From Limnothrix sp. FACHB-406 (GTDB taxonomy: Bacteria; Cyanobacteriota; Cyanobacteriia; CACIAM-69d): a DNA stretch of 64,000 nt. The stretch lies in contig NZ_JACJSP010000002.1 in assembly GCF_014698235.1 (NCBI RefSeq), positions 124,001 to 188,000 on the forward strand, in the 5' to 3' direction. The notes beneath the pieces were generated by a model. That model had not been told where the DNA came from and made no database searches. It saw nothing but the letters and a program-made list of their open reading frames with translations. Shown here one piece after another: positions 14,947 to 17,179 of the stretch (position 1 is its first letter; each line of letters opens with the position of its first letter). The translations under genes were made by a program, and so were the position numbers.

Positions 14947-15435
14947 CTAGCTCAGGGCTTGGATAGCGTAGTCGATGTAGGTGTTTGCTTCGTTAGCAGC
15001 TTGACCGCTCAGACCGTGGTTAGCCTTGATGCTCTTGAGAGCTTCAACGTACCAGCTGGGGGACAGTTCGAAGGTGCTGTTGATTTCAGCCAAACCAGCG
15101 ATGAGGTAGTCATCCATGGGGCCGGTGCCACCAGCAACCAAGCAGTAGGTGATCATGCGCAGGTAGTAGCCCACGTCACGAGCGCACTTGTCCTTGCCGG
15201 TTTGGGTCGAGGCGTAGTTAGCGCCGTTCATTTGGGTCGTGTAGGGGAACTTGCCGTACACAGCTTGCACAGCAGCGCTCACCAGGCTGTCAGCCTTGGT
15301 GGTCAGGGCGCGAGCAGCTTCCATGCTGGCTTGAGCGCGCTCGAAGCGACCGCGAGCCGATTGCAGTTCAGCGTTGCTCAGGAAACGACCTTGCGAATCA
15401 GCAGCTGCGATAGCTTCGGTGATCGGAGTCTTCAT
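14947..15435 (-). CDS. cpcA: C-phycocyanin alpha subunit
   Basis: A 162-aa phycobiliprotein alpha chain, the usual length. It begins [20 protein letters not shown] and carries the bilin-binding Cys in the [17 protein letters not shown] motif (Cys at about residue 84). The C-terminus is [10 protein letters not shown]. It pairs with CpcB to form the alpha-beta monomer of phycobilisome rods, absorbing near 620 nm when loaded with phycocyanobilin. The spacer from cpcB is about 290 bp, long for this gene pair, and contains an insertion-sequence-like remnant. A strong hairpin follows directly. Confidence 0.97.
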
Positions 15436-15469
15436 AGTCCCGTGTTAGGTGTCTCTAAAGTTAGCGTTG

Positions 15470-15652
15470 TTGACATCTTCCCTACCGCAAGCGGACAGGG
15501 ATTCCCAAACTTCACAGTTTGGGTTTCTGCTTCACACCACCTGCCTCCACCTCGAAGGATGTTTGGTCTTACAGTTGTTCCGCAGACTGAAACCGCTAGC
15601 CTAGCGGCCATTCATCGACTAAAACGCCCTGAAGGGCGGGGCTTTAAACCCT
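15470..15652. mobile_element. IS200/IS605-like remnant (non-autonomous) in the cpcB-cpcA spacer
   Basis: About 180 bp with the hallmarks of the ends of cyanobacterial IS200/IS605 elements but no transposase. One end has subterminal hairpins CCGC-AA-GCGG (15485-15494) and CCCAAAC-TTCACA-GTTTGGG (15504-15523) followed by TTTCTGCTTCACA. The other end has CGCCCT-GA-AGGGCG (15625-15638) followed by GGGGCTTTAAACC, and CCGCTAG-C-CTAGCGG lies between (15593-15607). The TTGACATCTTCC outer end and the GGGCGGGGCTTTAAACC end resemble right and left ends of such elements. The identification rests on remembered element ends, not a search. Confidence 0.6.
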
Positions 15653-15726
15653 GTTTTCCGATAAATCGAGACGAGATTGAAGTCAAAAGAAGATTGAAAT
15701 CCTAAGTGACTTCACGGCAGCTTCGA

Positions 15727-17179
<1,453 letters not shown>

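Follow-up and report, generated by a model that had tools for sequence, protein, structure and literature searches.

Why the spacer between the phycocyanin genes cpcB and cpcA is so long in Limnothrix, and what the additional DNA represents, was assessed in a 64,000-nucleotide stretch of the Limnothrix sp. FACHB-406 genome (the window). Both genes lie on the minus strand and encode PF00502 phycobiliproteins (cpcB, beta subunit, 15727–16245; cpcA, alpha subunit, 14947–15435). The 291 nt between them (15436–15726) had been described in a first-pass annotation as longer than usual, with small hairpins and an IS200/IS605-like insert lacking a transposase, and each of these observations held. The spacer was 291–292 nt in all three sampled Limnothrix species, versus 37–173 nt among 80 non-Limnothrix spacers (median over all rows, 81) and 59–73 nt in other genera of the same family. 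Subtracting a 191-bp element, oriented as the cpc operon, leaves 100 nt, an ordinary length for the group. This element occupies the cpc site in all three Limnothrix species and is absent from the other genera sampled, including those of its own family; comparison with related strains returned no conserved spacer devoid of similarity to IS200/IS605 ends. Because the long spacer is confined to the three Limnothrix species, the extra segment entered in the Limnothrix stem and was then kept, and it is now inherited vertically. Comparison genomes were a sister species of the same genus, Limnothrix sp. CACIAM 69d (G001; cpc contig MKGP02000063.1), an outgroup (G002) and a genome with a short cpc spacer without the element (G004).

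Read on the minus strand, the cpc segment consists of a left-end (LE) hairpin joined to the 3′ part of tnpB and a right end (RE), closing with GATGTCAA (15470–15477), which contains a cleavage-site-like TCAA and was placed by copy alignment and an empty site described below. The LE hairpin (CGCCC-TTCA-GGGCG, 15625–15638, followed by TTTT) and that at the RE tip are subterminal hairpins rather than terminal inverted repeats, as in IS200/IS605-derived elements, and further hairpins lie at 15504–15523 and near 15594–15608 (CCGCTAGGCTAGCGG). The LE hairpin with its TTTT is weakly terminator-like and may attenuate cpcA. TTTAT, the target motif (TAM), lies directly 5′ of LE (15661–15665), and the alignment places TTTAT, TTCAT or TTGAT at the equivalent place in other copies. 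No transposase is present in the spacer.

The extent of the element was set with reference to another element of the same genome, which carries tnpB on contig C10 and whose site is empty in CACIAM 69d (TTCAT joined directly to ATTAATG), so that it spans the base after TTCAT through TCAA; insertion 3′ of an AT-rich TAM without target duplication was demonstrated at this empty site. The same rule gives a cpc element of 191 bp at 15470–15660, after TTTAT, in agreement with the copy alignment and diverged copies, such that the boundary at 15470 proposed in the first-pass annotation stands while the other end moves from 15652 to 15660. The empty cpc site of G004 fits the right junction and TTTAT, but its left flank aligns poorly and has diverged too far for the LE position to be fixed from it, and the LE boundary was therefore taken from the C10 empty site.

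A search with the spacer identified diverged copies of the element (70–76% identity) on five other contigs of the genome, with matches that begin exactly at the right boundary, 15470 (E = 6e-29, 2.5e-28, 1.7e-20 and 1.1e-16). With E values of this order within one genome, the family resemblance is not due to chance, and the earlier suggestion that other copies with the same ends might exist was borne out. As in PATE- or MITE-like families, several copies have common ends and are too short for a transposase gene. One copy lies beside an intact tnpB encoding 391 aa. This is the C10 element, which has the same right end as the cpc element and whose protein matches ISDra2 TnpB (8bf8, 8h1j; E = 5e-81). 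We observed the ends, the target-motif pattern, the lack of a gene, the genomic relatives and the Limnothrix-only presence at the cpc site directly, and we regard the identity of the spacer insert as an IS605-type element as close to certain.

A reading without any link to IS605, in which the phycocyanin spacer is simply long and happens to hold local hairpins or else carries a REP/RAYT element, would accord with a folding energy of the spacer that is only modestly unusual (z = −2.0, weak evidence alone) and with the existence of a RAYT gene in the genome, but we give it almost no credence in view of the strength of the matches to copies, the homology to the tnpB gene end, the target motif and the empty sites. 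The genomic copies, the tnpB-end alignment and the C10 empty site refute the ordinary spacer, and the REP/RAYT candidate was rejected since the element is homologous to IS605 ends and to the 3′ end of tnpB and the RAYT gene is on a different contig. Rfam scans of the window, and of the spacer at a relaxed threshold, gave nothing credible and no score above the gathering cut-off.

The element is not merely a set of leftover ends. Its description as a remnant was correct as to IS605 derivation and fell short in that the whole TnpB omega-RNA scaffold has been kept. In IS605-family elements, the guide RNA of TnpB covers the 3′ end of the tnpB gene together with RE, and the adjoining flank supplies the guide (PMC10097598, PMC8612924); 116 nt of the omega-RNA scaffold are ordered in the ISDra2 complex (PMC10097598). 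A covariance model matched 15470–15609 of the window (G000:C2:139470-139609, 147.5 bits), which corresponds to ~140 nt of former tnpB 3′ end plus right end and thus exceeds the length of the ISDra2 scaffold; this region overlaps the tnpB 3′ end and RE of autonomous relatives, and its fold is conserved. A set of 30 tnpB-linked relatives, drawn from many families of cyanobacteria, was 93.6% paired in the fold, with double changes at 19 of 33 pairs versus 6–10 in slid controls, while eight Limnothrix copies lacking tnpB (solo copies) were 92.2% paired with 8 double changes versus 0–3. In both cases the control was made by sliding, and the structure itself came from the sequences under test. Of the 38 tnpB-linked consensus pairs, the three cpc copies keep 35, 34 and 35 (35 in the window genome), and 29 are left in copy L070, in which RE is degenerate. 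The omega RNA includes the hairpin at 15504–15523 (CCCAAACT-GTGA-AGTTTGGG), the loop-adjacent closing pair of which is T-A in the window genome, C-G in CACIAM 69d and T-G in G002.

Within six solo copies, a set that includes two copies outside the solo clade described below (L060 and L061), the best conserved part was a 45-nt omega core (91% identity), which is no longer coding and is not a transposon end, followed by the LE hairpin (85%), RE hairpin (74%), LE spacer (50%) and variable hairpin (41%). Shared ancestry with coding copies may account for part of the conservation of the core. On the ISDra2 pattern (PMC10097598, PMC8612924), the predicted 16-nt guide is CAACGCTAACTTTAGA, the flank 3′ of RE (15454–15469); the omega RNA has the same sense as the cpc transcript, and the guide would thus be cpcA leader. 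Across four genomes this guide was found nowhere beside an intact TAM, occurring only at its own RE flank, where GTCAA replaces the TAM next to the guide, such that the occupied site would not be cut.

In a search of 390 genomes of the class, the short Limnothrix form of the element was confined to Limnothrix and a single further genus of the same family. Solo omega RNAs were also found in other families, where a conserved block of ~140 nt (GGUCACUGACCCACCCGCGACGAUGGA...GGUAGACCGGGAAAAGAGGA.AGGGCAAUGG) stands in place of tnpB. The block was present in 23 of the 390 genomes, representing 21 genera, and at most of 20 block loci it followed a left end that has an NTCAT-type motif and directly preceded the omega RNA, with no tnpB at these 20 loci beyond a 36-residue overlap. 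These loci (L236–L255, e.g. L242:1501-1828, L246, L215, L211) represent non-coding IS605-like elements of ~380 nt found cyanobacteria-wide in ~20 genera, in the order NTCAT motif, LE, ~140-nt block, omega RNA and RE. The block differs in length between members and folds into a covarying structure (98% paired; double changes at 10 of 31 pairs versus 0–3 in controls); at the loci examined, it contains no long open frame. Rfam scans of the solo loci and the block gave no match.

Maximum-likelihood analysis placed all block-type elements in a single clade with the cpc copies, L059, L070 and L063, separate from tnpB-linked omega RNAs (support 97/84), in an alignment of only 142 columns in which coding constraint on tnpB-linked copies could exaggerate the split. 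The Limnothrix solos L060 and L061 fell outside this clade and may be separate deletions. The closest relatives of the cpc element are therefore other tnpB-free elements, and it is not a fresh deletion of the resident tnpB element. We tentatively suggest, at somewhat less than even confidence, that cyanobacteria harbor an old, tnpB-free, guide-only IS605 lineage with the layout LE, mostly a new structured RNA domain of ~140 nt, omega RNA and RE, which would parasitize, in trans, the transposase and TnpB encoded by other elements and use its flank as a homing guide, with the cpc element as a short member in one of the most highly transcribed Limnothrix operons.

Differences between the closest strains were unevenly distributed across the element. 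Of 26 substitutions and indels between the window genome and CACIAM 69d over 1649 bp, 18 fell within a 68-bp patch of the omega part at 15511–15578 (hypergeometric tail about 1e-20; in a further count, 18 substitutions and 1 indel), while the rest of the spacer was identical or nearly so. Comparison with the outgroup G002 indicated that CACIAM 69d is the odd one, and the patch likely reflects gene conversion, recombination or an error in the CACIAM 69d MAG assembly. Comparison by eye with G001 copies identified no donor among them.

We favor, as fairly probable, the overall explanation that the insert is a solo-omega-RNA element that was moved in trans and whose lineage is kept by TnpB guided in trans. 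An element made up of LE, solo omega RNA and RE would have entered the cpcB–cpcA spacer before the three Limnothrix species split, moved by a Y1 transposase supplied in trans. TnpB encoded elsewhere, for which the C10 copy in the window genome is a candidate, would load omega RNAs of the lineage and cut element-free chromosome copies at the site that the flanking guide specifies, after which repair would restore the element and the lineage would thereby be kept. That the cpc copy itself functions as a guide in trans is a weaker proposition, to which we assign slightly less than an even chance. A close TnpB is encoded in the window genome (C10, intact) and in G002 (91% identical), whereas CACIAM 69d has kept the element yet no close TnpB was found in it, which indicates that present retention does not need TnpB. 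No IS200-type TnpA was detected in the draft genome, in which the sole Y1 match is a RAYT-like protein of 161 aa (L058:1426-1911, minus strand) encoded on another contig than cpc; the lack of a Y1 TnpA in element and genome argues against present mobility, although the gene is not expected in derived elements.

These two absences make it a serious rival that the cpc copy is a passive fossil, that is, an IS605-type deletion derivative that was inserted once, is tolerated in the cpcA leader without guide activity, and has a scaffold that has not yet decayed. The substitutions by which sister strains have come to differ in the omega part are in line with such a fossil, as are the pair losses and degenerate RE of L070. 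The conservation of the omega core above the transposon end hairpins in solo copies, the 92% pairing with compensatory changes and the wide distribution of the tnpB-free lineage in the class count against it, and we consider it rather unlikely. It is also conceivable, if improbable, that the element has been exapted in cis, with its hairpins acting on the cpc transcript through partial termination, RNase processing or stabilization and thereby tuning cpcB relative to cpcA and the linkers. The LE hairpin with TTTT is found in all three cpc copies and in no other copy, and the spacer outside the patch barely differs between the two closest species, and both points favor such a role; however, the stem has just 5 bp and 4 T and is only weakly terminator-like, phycobilisomes need about 1:1 subunits, and neighboring genes have diverged as little as the nearly invariant spacer.

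The favored solo-omega-RNA reading can be placed among known systems. Like ISDra2 of Deinococcus radiodurans, to whose TnpB the resident C10 TnpB is a close homologue, the cpc element is inserted 3′ of a TTGAT-like TAM and has an omega RNA composed of the tnpB 3′ end and RE with the flank as guide (PMC8612924, PMC10097598), but it lacks tnpA and tnpB, so its omega RNA could work only in trans. The same RE and omega region, a similar LE and a TTNAT-type TAM are found in IS1341-type (tnpB-only) elements such as C10, whereas in the cpc element the tnpB body is missing entirely, and the element groups with solo omega RNAs and not with C10. For IscB systems, standalone omega RNAs were reportedly described by Altae-Tran et al. 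in 2021, and there, too, the guide RNA is encoded apart from the nuclease gene, but those RNAs belong to IscB, which is Cas9-like, while the cpc-type ones are TnpB-type and lie inside mobile elements with complete ends. The cpc element also resembles the PATEs of Haloquadratum walsbyi, which, in the part of the published account drawn on here, are transposase-free IS605-type derivatives with near-terminal palindromes, without terminal inverted repeats or target duplication, some of which arose by core deletion (PMC3119063). That part of the account describes PATEs as fused terminal sequences with guide RNA unmentioned, in contrast to the complete, conserved omega-RNA scaffold of the cpc element (PMC3119063). 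The cpc element is PATE-like but carries an omega RNA and belongs to a tnpB-free lineage, and is new in that respect; a search of the open-access literature turned up neither non-autonomous elements that carry an omega RNA nor the spacer insertion.

Cas12 descends from TnpB, whose gene normally also produces the guide RNA. Guide-RNA-only elements that form their own clade in ~20 cyanobacterial genera would, if the reading is true, represent natural guide RNAs that operate separately from the nuclease. Cyanobacteria are often polyploid, and such hosts would be open to gene-drive-like homing. Homing of this kind has been shown for IS200/605 in plasmids (PMC11870625). The cpcBA spacer is also a standard typing marker, two thirds of which is a transposable element in Limnothrix; the middle of this element can change abruptly between near-identical strains and may thus mislead spacer-based trees.

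Other tnpB families were apparent in the genome. Another TnpB family is represented by L046 on contig C2, the site of which is empty at CACIAM 69d locus L179 (TTGCTGAC joined directly to CAACCG); its right terminus is the same GATGTCAA as in the cpc element, with a different omega region. A second, apparently recent tnpB family (L050, L051, L056 and the contig-end copies L052–L055 and L057) is found at many contig ends and probably represents the repeat at which the assembly breaks; in its IS607-like arrangement, an overlapping frame precedes a TnpB-like C-terminal domain. In two solo elements, L061 (near position 1136 of the minus-oriented locus) and L063 (near 1042 of the plus-oriented one), the TTCAT motif is the reverse complement of a start, ATGAA, and the insertions leave the opposite-strand gene that begins with this start intact.
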